Made by a program: the position numbers and the translations under genes
Notes under the pieces: model-generated
What the model was told of the DNA's origin: nothing
The model's input: the letters and a program-made list of their open reading frames with translations, nothing else
Databases searched by the model: none
Source of the DNA: Paenisporosarcina antarctica
GTDB taxonomy: Bacteria > Bacillota > Bacilli > Bacillales_A > Planococcaceae
Assembly: GCF_004367585.1 (NCBI RefSeq)
Contig: NZ_CP038015.1
Coordinates: 3,726,001 to 3,790,000, forward strand
Direction of reading: 5' to 3'
Length of the DNA: 64,000 nucleotides
In this document: in pieces, positions 30,072 through 37,323 of the stretch
Position numbering within the stretch: position 1 is the first letter of the stretch
Layout: the number at the start of each line of letters is the position of its first letter

Positions 30072-30142
30072 CTATCTATTCACTAAGATATAAAATATTC
30101 GTCTATTTTATACAATTAGTAACATTAACGAGAGAACCGCAC

Positions 30143-30160
30143 TTACTTATGATAAGGTTC
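30143..30160 (-). repeat. rlmH-3'-end-like site 2
   Basis: The minus strand reads GAACCTTATCATAAGTAA, translating in the rlmH frame as EPYHK-stop with one synonymous change from the true rlmH end. It lies in intergenic DNA with no rlmH around it. Confidence 0.65.
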
Positions 30161-30240: not shown

Positions 30241-31434
30241 CTACTCCAACAACTCTTCAGGAAGCAGCTTAAATCCTTCAATCATCGTGTCTTCTTCCAC
30301 CTCAATCAATAGACAGCGTTTGCCATTGTAATTGACCTGTCTTACATATCTCAAGTCTTGTGGGCTGATCGTAATATTCGCTACTTTCGTGCTGATCTTG
30401 ATTGACTTGGACGCGTAACTTGGAACTATATGGCTTGCTTTCATTTCATACGTTTTGTCTTCGATTACCCGCTGAAAGGCACTTTCCACTTTTTCTGTAT
30501 TCACATCTTTTACGCCGCTCGCCTTCAGAACACGTTCAACCTCTTTACTATCCAAAGTAGGACTACTCCCATCTTCGTCCTCATTCTCTTCTTCCATCAC
30601 CAACATATTATTAATTTCATCATATACACTTGCGAGGGTTTTCGAATTCACTTCATCACCAATTACTGCTTTTACAATTTCTTCAAACACCGCTTTATCT
30701 TCCTCGGCAGTCATGATTTCCTTGCCGTTCAACACATTCTCAATAAATTGTACATCCGGTTTATTCGCTTTGCCCGCAGCATAAAGGATGTGATTGACGT
30801 CTGCGGCGTTGTTTGTGAAGCAAGGGAACAGAAATCCACCAATTGGAGAGGGCAGTTTAATGACGGGATCTGCCAAGAGACTCGACTTAAACTCCCTCTC
30901 GACAAAATTAAACACAAGTGAACGTTTCGGCAGTTCTGTCTGATTCATGCTACAGAGGATAAAAGGAGTGATATACACTTCATTCCGAATGTCTATTTCA
31001 GTTTCATCAGGATTGCGTTTCGTCGTTTTATTATAATTTCCACGAATAAATGTGACGACCATATCCTTGTCATATTGGATTTCCTGTACCATCTTCAAGG
31101 CGATACGTTGCATATTCTCTTTCCATTCGACTACATCATCTGTATGAAGCGCTTGATATAAAAGTCGTTGCGCATGGTCCGTTTGTCCCTCTTCTTGACG
31201 TTGAAACTTCACCTCAAATAGTTTCACATCCAGTTTCCCGCCTAATACCTTTTTAAAGTTATCAAGGAACAGTTCTTGCTGCTCCCGGTCCAACAAGGAA
31301 AATGACTGGCTCTCCTCATAATAGATATCACTGCTTTCCTGCTTGATGTAAACGTTATAAATATCATCAACTTTCAGTAAATCAGTATCCACCTTAAATT
31401 GTTTGCGAATCGCTGCTATGTCATTCTTATTCAT
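30241..31434 (-). CDS. DUF4317 family protein
   Basis: A 397-residue cytoplasmic protein that I recognise as DUF4317, a Firmicutes family without known function. It is rich in charged residues, with no membrane segment. Conserved-looking blocks are the N-terminus MNKNDIAAIRKQFK and the middle FILCSMNQTELPKRSLVFNF. I took the ATG at 31434 because the frame's first codon (TTG 31446) touches the GGGAG element directly. The gene is alone, between two rlmH-end-like sites, so it may be island cargo. Confidence 0.75.
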   Translation of the reverse strand: MNKNDIAAIRKQFKVDTDLLKVDDIYNVYIKQESSDIYYEESQSFSLLDREQQELFLDNFKKVLGGKLDVKLFEVKFQRQEEGQTDHAQRLLYQALHTDDVVEWKENMQRIALKMVQEIQYDKDMVVTFIRGNYNKTTKRNPDETEIDIRNEVYITPFILCSMNQTELPKRSLVFNFVEREFKSSLLADPVIKLPSPIGGFLFPCFTNNAADVNHILYAAGKANKPDVQFIENVLNGKEIMTAEEDKAVFEEIVKAVIGDEVNSKTLASVYDEINNMLVMEEENEDEDGSSPTLDSKEVERVLKASGVKDVNTEKVESAFQRVIEDKTYEMKASHIVPSYASKSIKISTKVANITISPQDLRYVRQVNYNGKRCLLIEVEEDTMIEGFKLLPEELLE

Positions 31435-31556
31435 CTCTAATTCCAACTCCCTGGCTAGTAAGATCCGTGTTATTGAATCAAAATCCGTGTCATGTACAAA
31501 AAAAGAGCATCCAAAGCTACAGTTTAGCTTTTGACACTTTTTTATTATAACAATAT

Positions 31557-31700
31557 TTAAGATGAAGAACGGAAAACAGTTCCAATATAGTTAATTGTCT
31601 GCACTTTGCCATCCACGTCATATTTAGCTAGTTTCTTGCGAATGGATCTGCTGTGTCCCTTAAAATTGTCCTTTCTAAAATGTAGGTTTAGTACTTTCAT
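31557..31700 (-). CDS. Possible 47-residue protein or C-terminal remnant
   Basis: ATG-started frame whose product ends RKKLAKYDVDGKVQTINYIGTVFRSSS. The basic helix followed by a beta-like stretch resembles the end of a winged-helix regulator, but no ribosome-binding site is seen and I do not recognise the family. It could equally be the tail of a lost gene. Confidence 0.3.
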   Translation of the reverse strand: MKVLNLHFRKDNFKGHSRSIRKKLAKYDVDGKVQTINYIGTVFRSSS

Positions 31701-31792
31701 TTTACAAAATAGGACGATTTATTGTATTTATTGTTGGAAATTCCAGTTAAAGTTTAGAATTTATTTCTAATAAACTCTTCTAAAACAATAAT

Positions 31793-31829: not shown

Positions 31830-31885
31830 ATTTTATTTCTTACTAATATATTAGTTTTGAAAAATTTTTTTCTGAAAAACCTCAT

Positions 31886-31901
31886 TTACTTGGTACGGTT
31901 C
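31886..31901 (-). repeat. rlmH-3'-end-like site 3
   Basis: The minus strand reads GAACCGTACCAAGTAA, which is site 4 with two bases deleted. With flanks, AAAACCTCATTTACTT...GGTACGGTTC is shared by sites 3 and 4, making a direct repeat around the DUF378-splB segment. Confidence 0.6.
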
Positions 31902-32109: not shown

Positions 32110-32445
32110 TTAATCTACAGAATCCTTACCACGGTTCATCTTTTTCAATTTAACGTCCTGTTCTTTCGTAAGATCCGGTTCCTCGCCGAATTCTGTTCTT
32201 AAATTAGAATTAGCGAAACTTGCAGGTCGGTCGGTAACCTTGTCGACCTCTTCATTTGGCTTAAATAGTAGACCGAGACATACCAGACCACCAATCCCTA
32301 CAAGACCATAGACCACCCTAGACAAGAATGCATCTTGACCACCAAATAACGTTGCAACTAAATCAAATTGAAATAATCCAATCAAACCCCAGTTAAGTGC
32401 ACCGATAATAACTAGAGATAGTGCAATCCGTGAGAACATACTCAT
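32110..32445 (-). CDS. DUF378 family membrane protein
   Basis: A 111-residue protein with the DUF378 core: two hydrophobic helices with the signature IGALNWGLIGLFQFDLVATLFG (residues 14-36) and RVVYGLVGIGGL. A soluble, charged tail of about 45 residues follows, longer than in minimal members. Function unknown. It stands alone 330 bases downstream of splB on the same strand, separated by the splB terminator. Confidence 0.85.
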   Translation of the reverse strand: MSMFSRIALSLVIIGALNWGLIGLFQFDLVATLFGGQDAFLSRVVYGLVGIGGLVCLGLLFKPNEEVDKVTDRPASFANSNLRTEFGEEPDLTKEQDVKLKKMNRGKDSVD

Positions 32446-32780: not shown

Positions 32781-33809
32781 TCAAGTAAAATACTCCAACT
32801 TCGCATTCGGAAAGTACTTTGTCATATATCCGTATAGATTTGACTTTATTTCATCCTCTTCATCCTTTTGGTAAATATACTTACCAATTCCATACCTGCC
32901 CCATTTGTAACGTCTTTTTTCTTCATCTAACTCCAATTTCGTTTTTGGATAATTCTTTTCAATCACTTTTTTCGCGGGCTTCGTAAAGCGGTGTTGAATA
33001 AATTCAAATGTAATATCGTCTCTTGCATCTTGTGGCAATTCTTCATCAAGTCGCTCAAACATGCGGCGATATCCTTCCTCCCAGCCTTCATGAAGGTATA
33101 TGGGAGCAACGATAAAACCTAGTGGGTAGCCAGCTCTCGCCACTTTCCCTGCTGCCTCGATTCTTTTATTCAGAGGAGAAGTACCGGGCTCAAAACTCTT
33201 AATGACATAATCAGCGTTTATGCTAAATCGGAATCGTGTATTGCCATTATGCTTGGCATCCAGTAAATGGTCGACAAAATGAAATTTGGTCACAAAACGT
33301 AGCCTACCTAATTCTGTTTGACCAATATGTTCAATTGCTTTTTTTAATGAATGCGTCAAATGGTCAATTCCTACTATATCTGATGTACAGGCAGCTTCGA
33401 ACCGGGTAATCTCAGGTGCACGTTCTTCGATGTAGCGATCAGCCGCTTCAAAAATCTCTTCCACGTTTACGTAAGTTCGAATATACGGTTTGCTGCCCAT
33501 CGTCGTTTGCAAATAACAGTAATGACAATGCGCCATACAACCTGTCGCAAGGGGGATTGCATATTCTGCTGAAGGCTTTGACGTATCAAATTTTAGCGTT
33601 TTTCGAATACCAACGACTAAGGTGGATTTTGCGATACGATATTTTTGAGCGTCCGTATCACCCGGCAAATCCCGAATTTGATTATGCGATGTCGTAAAGC
33701 GCGTTTCAATCCCCATTTCCTCAAACTTTTTCTTCAGTTCTTTTCCAAGAGGATAATCAAGTGCATGGGGCTCAAAATAGACAAGTTGTGGGATAAAGGG
33801 TTTATTCAT
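32781..33809 (-). CDS. splB: Spore photoproduct lyase
   Basis: Radical SAM enzyme that reverses the UV lesion 5-thyminyl-5,6-dihydrothymine during spore germination. It is 342 residues, the family length. The [4Fe-4S] ligands are Cys91, Cys95 and Cys98 (CMAHCHYC), and the hydrogen-donating cysteine is Cys141 in EAACTSD, at the same position as in Bacillus. The usual partner splA (a TRAP-like regulator) is not adjacent. The gene is bracketed with DUF378 by a direct repeat, so it may have moved as a unit. Confidence 0.96.
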   Translation of the reverse strand: MNKPFIPQLVYFEPHALDYPLGKELKKKFEEMGIETRFTTSHNQIRDLPGDTDAQKYRIAKSTLVVGIRKTLKFDTSKPSAEYAIPLATGCMAHCHYCYLQTTMGSKPYIRTYVNVEEIFEAADRYIEERAPEITRFEAACTSDIVGIDHLTHSLKKAIEHIGQTELGRLRFVTKFHFVDHLLDAKHNGNTRFRFSINADYVIKSFEPGTSPLNKRIEAAGKVARAGYPLGFIVAPIYLHEGWEEGYRRMFERLDEELPQDARDDITFEFIQHRFTKPAKKVIEKNYPKTKLELDEEKRRYKWGRYGIGKYIYQKDEEDEIKSNLYGYMTKYFPNAKLEYFT

Positions 33810-33836: not shown

Positions 33837-34099
33837 TATCCATTTGATCACCTTTCTCTTTTTTTATAGCTTGTCTTAAAAATGAGAAGTTATGAAAATG
33901 AACATAATTTTGGGTACTTGATCACAACCTTATTCAGTTAAAATAATACAAGTGCATAAACAATTAGGAACCTCAGTCACATTCACTTGGGATTAGTAAT
34001 TATTCGAATATTTATAGACCTTGGTGAGTTGATATATTCTTACCTTGCATAGGTCAGTCAAACAATGATAAAAAACACCAAAATAGTAAAAAACCTCAT
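33837..34099. other. Spacer upstream of splB
   Basis: AT-rich DNA without a supportable gene; it should contain the splB promoter (sigma G in Bacillus), which I could not place. Confidence 0.4.
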
Positions 34100-34117
34100 T
34101 TACTTGTGGTACGGTTC
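34100..34117 (-). repeat. rlmH-3'-end-like site 4
   Basis: The minus strand reads GAACCGTACCACAAGTAA, translating as EPYHK-stop with only synonymous changes from the real rlmH end. It lies 64 bases from the decayed rlmH copy at 34164-34486, so two such ends stand side by side. Confidence 0.7.
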
Positions 34118-34163
34118 TCCGTCACGCGCTTAGATGCGAAATTTTAGTGAAATTTTTCGCACC

Positions 34164-34486
34164 AATTTATGATACGGCTGGTTATGAATAATACAAAATG
34201 CTCGATACACCTGCTCAATCAATACTAACTTCATCAACTGATGAGGGAAAATCATTTTACAGAATGATAATTGTTCATTTGATCTCTTCAATATTTCATC
34301 ACTTAGTCCGAGTTATCCACTGATGACGAAGGTGATTTTGCTTTTGCCGTACGTCATGAGTTGGTTGAAGTCGTCGGCTAGTTGTTCGGAGGATTTCATT
34401 TTTCCGTTAATGGCAAGGGCAATGACGTGAGCATCGGGTACGATTTTTGCCAAGATGCGTTCGCCTTCTTTTCGTTTCACGAGCAA
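34164..34486 (-). pseudogene. rlmH: Decayed second copy of the rlmH 3' half
   Basis: From about 34486 the minus strand encodes [12 protein letters not shown]...[26 protein letters not shown]-like sequence, closely matching residues 56-105 of the intact RlmH at 37306-37785. A TAA replaces the serine codon after FVISG at 34313. Past it the same frame continues to match to the very end ([18 protein letters not shown]...NQPYHK). It covers about two thirds of the gene; the 5' third is absent. It is joined in frame to an EcsC-family gene. Confidence 0.9.
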
Positions 34487-35341
34487 CATGTCGAGTTTTT
34501 CCTTCATTATTTCCTCAAACTCCAAATCAATGATTTCTGGATTGTTTTTCCTCAATTCCTCAAAACTTTGTCTGATTTGCTTTGGGGTAAGATCGATGTT
34601 TTCTTCCAGTGCTTTGGCCAGTCGTTTCCCTATCTTGGTCATGGATGCATATGTTAACCCACCAGATATAATCCCTCCTGCCAACGGAATCGCTTTGGAA
34701 ACGCCTTTGGCAAATGAATTTTTAGTAACCTTTAAGCCAATGAACTCTAATGTCTTTTTAAAGATCGGATAGTAGACAGTCTTCATTAAAACTTTGTTCG
34801 GGATCTTCTTTAACGCTTGTTTTGCCAACTGTGATGATAAAGCTTTGATTGTGGCTGTTGCTCCGCCAACGCCAAACATAACACCTAAAAACAAGATTAA
34901 ATCGCCGCTCACATTTTCCGCATTCATTTCTTCGCCATCCCAAAAATCATCATAGCCATAAATTTAGCCGAGCTCTTGAGAAAGTCGTAAAGCCATGGCA
35001 AAAAACTGCACAGTATCTGCTGGAATCGTCGCAGCCATCGCTAAACCACCTGGGATGCCCGTAGCAAACGAAAGACTTGAACTTTGCATCGTCCGATCAG
35101 AAATCACTTTTTTAGCAATTTTGTTTAAAATCTGTTTATCAATATTGGCCTGTCCAGAACCTTTTTCAATCAGCTCGGCAAGTTCATCAGGAGATAAATG
35201 TTTCGAAAAACTCTTCGCTAAAAACTCTCTTCGATCCACTTTCACACCTGGTAACTTTACAACATTTGAAAGTACGACTTCGAGTACGGTAGATTCGTTT
35301 GCCAACATTAACACCTCATTTAACAATATTTTTCTTATCAT
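34313..35341 (-). pseudogene. EcsC-family gene split by a stop and fused to an rlmH remnant
   Basis: Residues 1-125 (from 35341) match the start of EcsC-family proteins (RREFLAKSFSKHLSPDELAELIEKG, SFATGIPGGLAMAATIPADTVQFFAMALRLSQEL). TAA at 34964-34966 interrupts the frame. Reading through it in the same frame gives [12 protein letters not shown] and then the rest of an EcsC protein ([42 protein letters not shown]). So one nonsense codon split a full-length gene. After about 34490 the frame passes without a shift into RlmH sequence and stops at 34313. EcsC proteins are thought to associate with membranes; function poorly known. A separate shorter protein starting at ATG 34927 could still be made. 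Confidence 0.85.
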
Positions 35342-35473
35342 ACTATTATTATTTCAAATTTTATCCATTAATATCTTTTCAAATGTATTCTTTATGCTAT
35401 GATTTAATCAATTCCTGAATTGATAGAAGCTTACATATTTCGATTTAAACTATGTAATAGAAAAGGTGAGATA

Positions 35474-36241
35474 ATGGATAAAAATGAAGATCTTTTAAAA
35501 ACCAAAGATGATCGAATTGCTCACTTGGAGAAACTTATTGTTGAATTAACGGAAGCTAAACAACAAAATGCTGCAACGCTTGCGGAAAGCTATCGTTCAA
35601 AGCCTTATGAAACATTTGAAAGTGGTTTTAAATTGTCTTCCTTATTCTTATGGTTTAAAAATATTCTAATCATCATTCTTATACTATTAGTACTCGGTCT
35701 TGGTGCTTTTTGGTTGCTGAATGGTAATGTCTTTAAGAAAAGTTCTGTAACATTTGTAGAAACTGTTCAGGAGTTATCCACTTTAGCAACAGCGGAAGCT
35801 CAAACGAAAACGGTGCTAAATATAGTAGACAATAAAATTTTCGGCAAAAAAATTCCTTTGCCTATACCTGGCACTAAACGTGAAATATTGCTCATTGTTC
35901 CCGCAACGGTGCTCGCAGGTGTTGATTTGAATAAGGTTACGGAAGACGATATGAAGATTAGCGAAGATACGAAAGAGATTGATATTACTCTACCTCACGC
36001 AAAACTTATTCAAGAACCTTCACTTCAAATGGACAAAATTACAACATACGTTGATGGTGGGATTTTCAATGATAAAGTTGATTGGAATGAAGGTTATGAA
36101 CTAGCGGCCTCTGCACAAGAAAAAGTTAAAAAAGAAGTTATTTCTGCCGGTTTATTAACAACTGCTGAAAAAAATGCAGACAAGGCACTAACTCAATTTT
36201 TCAAGAATATGGGTTACAAAGTAAATATAACTTATAAATAA
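35474..36241 (+). CDS. DUF4230 family membrane-anchored protein
   Basis: A 255-residue protein of the DUF4230 family. The N-terminal coiled-coil-like segment (KTKDDRIAHLEKLIVELTEAKQQ) is followed by one membrane helix (NILIIILILLVLGLGAFWLL) and the conserved soluble domain (VETVQELSTLATAEAQTKTVL... ITLPHAKLIQEPSLQMDKITTY). Function unknown. Start is taken at ATG 35474, with AAAGGTGAG upstream; the frame extends 18 codons further without a better site. It is the only plus-strand gene in the rlmH-proximal island, with its own terminator. Confidence 0.85.
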   Translation: MDKNEDLLKTKDDRIAHLEKLIVELTEAKQQNAATLAESYRSKPYETFESGFKLSSLFLWFKNILIIILILLVLGLGAFWLLNGNVFKKSSVTFVETVQELSTLATAEAQTKTVLNIVDNKIFGKKIPLPIPGTKREILLIVPATVLAGVDLNKVTEDDMKISEDTKEIDITLPHAKLIQEPSLQMDKITTYVDGGIFNDKVDWNEGYELAASAQEKVKKEVISAGLLTTAEKNADKALTQFFKNMGYKVNITYK

Positions 36242-36271
36242 CCAAATCATTATTATTAAAATCTCTTCATC

Positions 36272-36312
36272 AAAACAGCACCCACCTAAAGTACTGGTTG
36301 GGTGCTGTTTTG
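36272..36312 (+). terminator. Terminator of the DUF4230 gene
   Basis: AAAACAGCACCCA pairs with TGGGTGCTGTTTT, with an extended imperfect stem, 31 bases after the stop. Confidence 0.88.
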
Positions 36313-36330
36313 CATTATAAAATCATTATC

Positions 36331-36347
36331 TACTTATGATAATGGTT
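36331..36347 (-). repeat. rlmH-3'-end-like site 5 (weak)
   Basis: TACTTATGATAATGGTT on the plus strand resembles the rlmH end with a one-base insertion. It lies between the DUF4230 terminator and the immunity-gene remnant, and could be chance. Confidence 0.35.
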
Positions 36348-37215: not shown

Positions 37216-37305
37216 GGGTCCAAGAGAATTTTAGAATTTGTGCAACTCACTGAATACTAGTAACTCATTCATTTCTTATACCACCTATAATTGATTGCCA
37301 ATCAT

Positions 37306-37323
37306 TTACTTATGATACGGTTC
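37306..37323 (-). repeat. rlmH 3' end: candidate attachment site
   Basis: The last codons of the intact rlmH read GAACCGTATCATAAGTAA (EPYHK-stop). In staphylococci the equivalent end (EAYHK-stop) is the attB core used by Ccr recombinases of SCC elements. Variants of this sequence recur to the left in the window. Confidence 0.65.

Follow-up and report, generated by a model that had tools for sequence, protein, structure and literature searches.

How one reading frame came to unite two unrelated genes downstream of rlmH is the question raised by this locus of Paenisporosarcina antarctica. The window, i.e. the whole stretch of 64,000 nt that was analysed, contained a single minus-strand read-through frame at 34164-35341, with TAA codons at 34966-34964 and 34315-34313 and the C-terminal end PYHK. 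The sequence-only reading had described a frame passing without a shift from EcsC sequence into RlmH sequence, stopped at 34964 and 34313, with homology going on past the latter stop to the last codon of rlmH; all of this was borne out, the rlmH homology extending through the final codon at 34166. The RlmH part had been taken to start at residue 56, while codon alignment put its first codon (34492-34490) at residue 51. The locus was confirmed as a real recombination scar, in which genes unrelated to each other are united at an att hotspot of rlmH. The in-frame joining was probably chance; for a random join, an in-frame outcome is expected one time in three. The features are collected in Table 1.

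Table 1. Features of the rlmH-DUF4317 region, in window coordinates
Feature	Position	Strand	Evidence
Intact resident rlmH, 159 aa	37306..37785	-	NCBIfam NF000985 equivalog, 6.1e-78
att-like site at rlmH 3' end	37300..37323	-	2 mismatches to motif; repeat D3
Degenerate att-core-like sequence at edge of DUF4230/PDC-S30 block (weak)	36334..36344	-	1 mismatch to a short, chance-level pattern
DUF4230 gene, cargo neighbour	35420..36241	+	PF14014, 1.4e-33
Broken EcsC-like/PDC-S30-like gene with TAA 34964-34966, lacking the final codon and the stop; start uncertain	34496..35341	-	DNA shared with G005 (92.2%) as far as 34496
Junction of PDC-S30 homology and rlmH homology	34493..34496	-	about 2 bases in neither match
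rlmH relic, residues 51-159, with TAA 34313-34315; mosaic, breakpoint near 34322	34166..34492	-	PF02590 search, codon alignment
Inverted repeat right after relic end	34133..34163	-	sequence and fold
Second att-like site	34094..34117	-	1 mismatch to motif
Spore photoproduct lyase (SPL) gene, cassette cargo	32781..33809	-	PF20903, 1.1e-196
DUF378 gene, same cassette as SPL	32110..32445	-	PF04070, 4.1e-24
att-like site with 3-nt gap, other edge of SPL/DUF378 cassette	31880..31901	-	sequence
DUF4317 gene, next hotspot unit	30241..31446	-	PF14199, 2.4e-102
att-like site after DUF4317	30137..30160	-	3 mismatches

The first partner could be followed in Paenisporosarcina quisquiliarum SK 55 (genome G005), which carried the same pair of DUF4230 and EcsC-like genes with 92.2% DNA identity over window positions 34496-36326. 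An intact first gene, which was to be looked for in relatives, was found there, with 278 aa, no internal stop and the C-terminus ...EEIMKEKV before the stop codon. The window gene matched this homologue to the penultimate codon and continued as rlmH sequence, and the G005 gene ended one codon past the junction. On this alignment the join is end to end at the last codon of the first gene, not a cut within it. Short tails unlike RlmH were also seen in two more homologues that are intact, L055 and L057. The counter-possibility raised at the outset, an EcsC protein with this C-terminus by nature, was ruled out, since three intact homologues (of at least six related genes matched) ended without an RlmH tail.

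The name EcsC family, given at first reading, was marginal. Pfam EcsC (PF12787) scored the intact G005 homologue at 20.1 bits, under the cut-off of 30.4, and matched two of the three homologues at E up to 0.01 (best 8.4e-6); for the broken gene of the window, the Pfam search returned no EcsC match in either of its open pieces. The PADLOC profile PDC-S30 fitted all three homologues (best 7.7e-106), with residues 12-262 of the G005 protein on profile positions 10-260 of 268 (2.1e-105), and the assignment of the broken gene rests on these matches of intact homologues. PDC-S30 is a candidate label for phage defence, given just as a predicted candidate in the part of PMC11758030 drawn on here. Breakage of the window gene would be recent, because dN/dS to the G005 homologue was 0.2 at a dS of 0.10. 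The dS to G005 was uneven, being 0.10 for the EcsC-like gene, 0.33 for DUF4230 and 0.55 for DUF4317.

For the second partner, the PF02590 matches in the genome were the resident rlmH (1.1e-57) and the relic (3.6e-41, with one TAA inside). The relic had 71% DNA similarity to the resident gene over 300 nt (62-75% in 60-nt windows), which together with its E-value means that the RlmH part is no chance match. Starting at residue 51 and carrying the TAA, it did not form a complete, uninterrupted RlmH domain, and it reads as a fragment of the RlmH family, not an enzyme. In a tree of 139 distinct rlmH sequences (the relic, the resident gene and 137 others), the relic was placed with the rlmH of G001, a divergent congener, at a support of 0.999, and this gene was also the nearest to the whole relic (82.9%; next 75.5%). 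The resident rlmH clustered with those of G003, G004, G005, G007 and G008 (support 0.698), and the wider placement of the relic and G001 pair was poorly supported, at 0.659 and below except for one node at 0.934. Over the first 59 codons the relic had 90.4% DNA identity to G001 rlmH, the runner-up among the 138 other distinct sequences having 76.8%. By these affinities a duplication of the resident rlmH was ruled out, and the fragment turned out to be an allele related to G001. What stood of the earlier idea of recombination between an EcsC gene and an rlmH copy was the scar of unrelated genes; the copy of the resident gene and the cut inside the first gene did not stand.

The relic was split at its TAA and the 5' and 3' parts were compared. 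The last 49 codons had no close relative, with 74.8% to G001 and 75.5% as the best found, and the synonymous distance between relic and G001 rose from 0.42 in the 5' part to 2.6 in the 3' part. A breakpoint near 34322 was supported, its score being reached in 11 of 2000 shuffles of the codons. A 5' identity of at least 85% was shared by 150 pairs among the 138 other sequences, and the largest drop from 5' to 3' identity in them equalled that of the relic (15.6 points); none of the 78 pairs with 5' identity of 87-93% had a 3' identity of 78% or less. Decay was not favoured as the source of the divergent 3' end, because the jump in synonymous distance points to mosaic ancestry, and the relic itself is a mosaic. 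Since its 3' part was no nearer to G001 than to others, the gene of the donor, that of G001 or the relic was recombined at another time, so a single donor could be maintained only if the rlmH of the donor or of G001 had already recombined.

The surroundings of the relic have the character of a ccr-less, SCC-like cassette hotspot, judged by motif scans and gene content. A motif like GAACCGTATCATAAGTAAATGAGG matched the 3' end of rlmH and recurred in rlmH orientation in this genome, G002 and G005-G008, and the same pattern scan detected no such site in the loci fetched from G001, G003 and G004. With up to 3 mismatches it had four sites in the 3.97-Mb genome, three of them within 7.2 kb here, and the reversed pattern had none; the rlmH end of the relic thus lies beside att-like sites, as had been noticed from the letters. 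The clustering was shown by this longer motif only, the short att pattern being not above chance in the window (8 sites vs 6.07 expected; 21 of 100 shuffles reached 8). Direct rlmH 3'-end repeats, as used to define SCC and ECC, bordered the cassettes at 37300, 34094 and 30137 and, with a gap, at 31880, and an 18-nt exact repeat (D13) was present at 31875-31892 and 34089-34106. The ccr large serine recombinase belonging to the same definition was absent, PF07508 having no match in the genome, so the cassettes would be at most cassette-chromosome remnants. PF07508 matches were observed in four of nine genus genomes, from 1.0e-9 (with a stop) to 8.7e-4.

Similarity to G005 began at 36326, near the att-core-like sequence that borders the DUF4230/PDC-S30 block. 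DUF4317 also lay on the downstream side of rlmH in G002, G005, G006 (where it is in two pieces), G007 and G008. The interval from rlmH to DUF4317 was 3.2 kb in G002 and 2.5 kb in G008, with an open frame common to both. In G007 and G006, where it contains other genes, it measured 5.2 kb and 10.4 kb, respectively, and it was about 13 kb long in G005 and 5.9 kb in this genome. The hotspot DUF4317 gene of G006 (Paenisporosarcina indica; L038, 3450-4102) was without its middle part. A sequence of about 70 bp at window 31662-31735, of which both this genome and G007 have many similar copies, is perhaps the end of a mobile element.

Beside the relic, the order was inverted repeat, second att-like site, SPL, DUF378 and gapped att-like site. 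SPL had no match in the eight other Paenisporosarcina genomes, G001 included, and a protein with 96% aa identity was present in two g5 genomes, one of which is Psychrobacillus insolitus. In G248 (g3, Sporosarcina) SPL and DUF378 came immediately after rlmH, arranged as they are here, and in G028 and G278 the pair was present with 3.2-3.7 kb between rlmH and SPL. The order rlmH-SPL-DUF378 is therefore intact elsewhere, and here it is kept behind a truncated rlmH of another allele. Altogether, SPL with DUF378 was seen near rlmH in three g3 (Sporosarcina) genomes (L216 7366-8391, L215 5244-6269 and L048 9756-10781) besides this one, and immediately after rlmH in one of the three.

The PDC-S30 gene and DUF4317 were 237 bp apart in G005; similarity resumed about 130 nt after the PDC-S30 gene, at window position 31573, and no att-like site was detected in between by pattern scan. 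In place of these roughly 130 nt, this genome had about 2.9 kb made up of rlmH tail, att, cassette and att. The best explanation, with a probability of roughly 0.6, would be a one-sided import, in which a foreign rlmH tail with its cassette was joined att-independently to the PDC-S30-like gene. DNA of a relative with the 3' part of the donor rlmH, one or more att sites and the adjoining SPL/DUF378 cassette would have entered the chromosome, for example by natural transformation. Illegitimate recombination would have joined the incoming rlmH fragment to the last codon of the resident PDC-S30-like gene, and homology on the DUF4317/cassette side would probably have served as anchor for the other end, in the manner of homology-facilitated illegitimate recombination (HFIR). 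The fused frame would probably make nothing useful, the enzyme being supplied by the resident rlmH. What the sequence itself shows is a fragment that differs from the resident allele, a junction away from every att-like site, the order of the cassette and the hotspot; from this arrangement we infer a single event together with its anchor, donor and route.

Site-specific recombination at rlmH acts on the last rlmH codons, so recombination at att sites alone could not make a join at codon 51. The junction was about 315 nt away from the att core and no att-like site was detected at its position by motif pattern scan, either in the window genome or in G005; a site-specific insertion there was not favoured. 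A homologous event on one side with an illegitimate other end fits the join at codon 51, which brought non-homologous sequences together as HFIR does. The DUF4317 region, on the side of the putative anchor, was common to five genus genomes. Several observations count against the import. Comparison of the junction sequences showed no microhomology, though it is usual in HFIR, the block before the junction was itself uneven in dS to G005, and the 3' part of the relic was no nearer to G001 than to other sequences. A competence-family gene (PF03772) was present in the genome, but it says little about competence because 10 of 14 control genomes also had a match. A donor with both a G001-like rlmH and SPL was not found, G001 being without SPL match and SPL being closest in g5, not g1.

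The junction could also have come from a later deletion. In this two-step origin, an array of cassettes with a complete second rlmH was gained, and the PDC-S30 gene was then fused at its end, by a deletion, to codon 51 of that rlmH; it is unlikely, though it deserves serious weighing, because the final order would be identical and relatives have partial copies of rlmH at a distance from the gene. When the C-terminal 59 residues of the resident RlmH were the query, at least two matches at E up to 0.1 were found in 18 of 261 family genomes, this one included. Six of the other 17 had a partial second match below 1e-7 (G166, G260, G255, G189, G195 and G194), that of G260 at a contig start; G167 was one gene read in two pieces, and nine were weak. 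A second match over the whole query was found in G106 (rated 8% contaminated), and this was the only such match in a long frame among the 17 checked, which speaks against two steps, as does the extra event required. With the first 62 residues of the relic as query, two matches were obtained only in G000 and G106 among the 261 genomes, so long relics are rare and shorter ones recurrent. Outside the family, G077 had a broken rlmH copy on the downstream side of rlmH, about 5 kb away. Such 3' copies of rlmH, broken or partial, are those at L208, L209, L211, L212 (contig start) and L213, in family genomes and G077.

It is improbable that the polarity was reversed, with the relic as the original rlmH and its first third replaced by an incoming new rlmH with the DUF4230/PDC-S30 cassette, even if this would simply account for the missing first third and the native-looking downstream order. 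The comparison of upstream DNA argues against it. Over 13 genes with a G001 match (rlmH plus 12 others, reaching about 17 kb upstream), the genome was nearer to G002, G004-G006 and G008 than to G001; G007 was lower than G001 in walR only, and G003, compared over the first part of the upstream region only, gave a mixed result. Upstream DNA identity over aligned parts was 73.0% for G001, 74.6% for G003 and 78.8-81.3% for the six others. The 12 upstream genes showed no switch towards G001, the least similar genome except in walR, and the anchor of a reversed event would need a position farther upstream. Because about 17 kb upstream had no affinity to G001, the relic is probably a foreign rlmH fragment.

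An assembly artefact is very improbable, the assembly consisting of 2 contigs rated 100% complete. Exact repeats of the 200 nt that surround the junction reached at most 15 nt elsewhere in the window, as did those between relic and resident rlmH. Hardly credible is a selected fusion, in which the ATG-started open frame of 204 aa at 34313-34927 yields a functional hybrid protein: the PDC-S30-like protein loses its first part to the TAA at 34964, and RlmH its C-terminus to that at 34313. A search of 101 genomes, this one included with 100 relatives, found no further open frame across the junction, which two weak matches in G023 and G028 passed only through 4-5 stops.

Whichever its history, the scar is a new instance of known processes and no new kind of system. 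In the parts of the papers drawn on here, the ccr-less mosaics of the staphylococcal cassette chromosome downstream of rlmH/orfX, in S. stepanovicii (PMC4723332) and S. haemolyticus (PMC3637587), share with this locus the rlmH 3'-end repeats between units, the mosaic origins and the lack of ccr. The repeats of S. stepanovicii have a TATCATAA core, as in the motif here, but its terminal repeats are short, 15 bp encoding 5 residues (PMC4723332), whereas this locus has 109 codons from a different rlmH allele. The Enterococcus cassette chromosome, an example outside Staphylococcus, is described as inserted at the 3' region of rlmH, with remnants close to that gene and two rlmH alleles below 75% DNA identity, all shared here, and it carries ccrAB (PMC6222049), unlike this genome without PF07508 match. 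HFIR, as set out in PMC3240628, has in common one non-homologous junction, an insertion coupled with a deletion and the 3' end of a gene left behind. It differs in the microhomology of 3-10 bp in most cases, where here none is shown and we infer the anchor, and in insertions and deletions of similar size, the deletion here being small (about 130 nt vs G005). For T6SS immunity arrays, an HFIR-like process was put forward to account for displaced gene ends and called quite rare in the part of PMC5361080 used, and transfer of staphylococcal cassettes by mixed-biofilm transformation is stated to depend largely on attB and Ccr (PMC12570499). Among the matches listed, titles and abstract openings mentioned no truncated foreign rlmH beside a cassette.

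That rlmH cassettes often move independently of ccr, as pieces of chromosome dragging part of the donor rlmH, is a doubtful generalization. If true, broken rlmH 3' ends across the family would be a readable record of such transfers, with this locus as one clear, polarised case. The spread of rlmH cassettes without a recombinase gene is relevant to staphylococci and enterococci too. The foreign rlmH tail linked to the cassette suggests that cassettes can be delivered when a piece of chromosome is transferred and joined independently of att sites, and the footprint of such transfer could be looked for in the form of rlmH fragments. The single case here is a pseudogene scar, with no function of its own likely.

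Ends like the RlmH C-terminus (...YRAYRI....PYHK stop) were also observed on unrelated upstream sequence, at L207 7259-7372, L041 3323-3433, L214 6672-6785 and L210 6164-6439, one of them in an open frame of 130 aa. These divergent ends are possibly att mimics or old rlmH tails.
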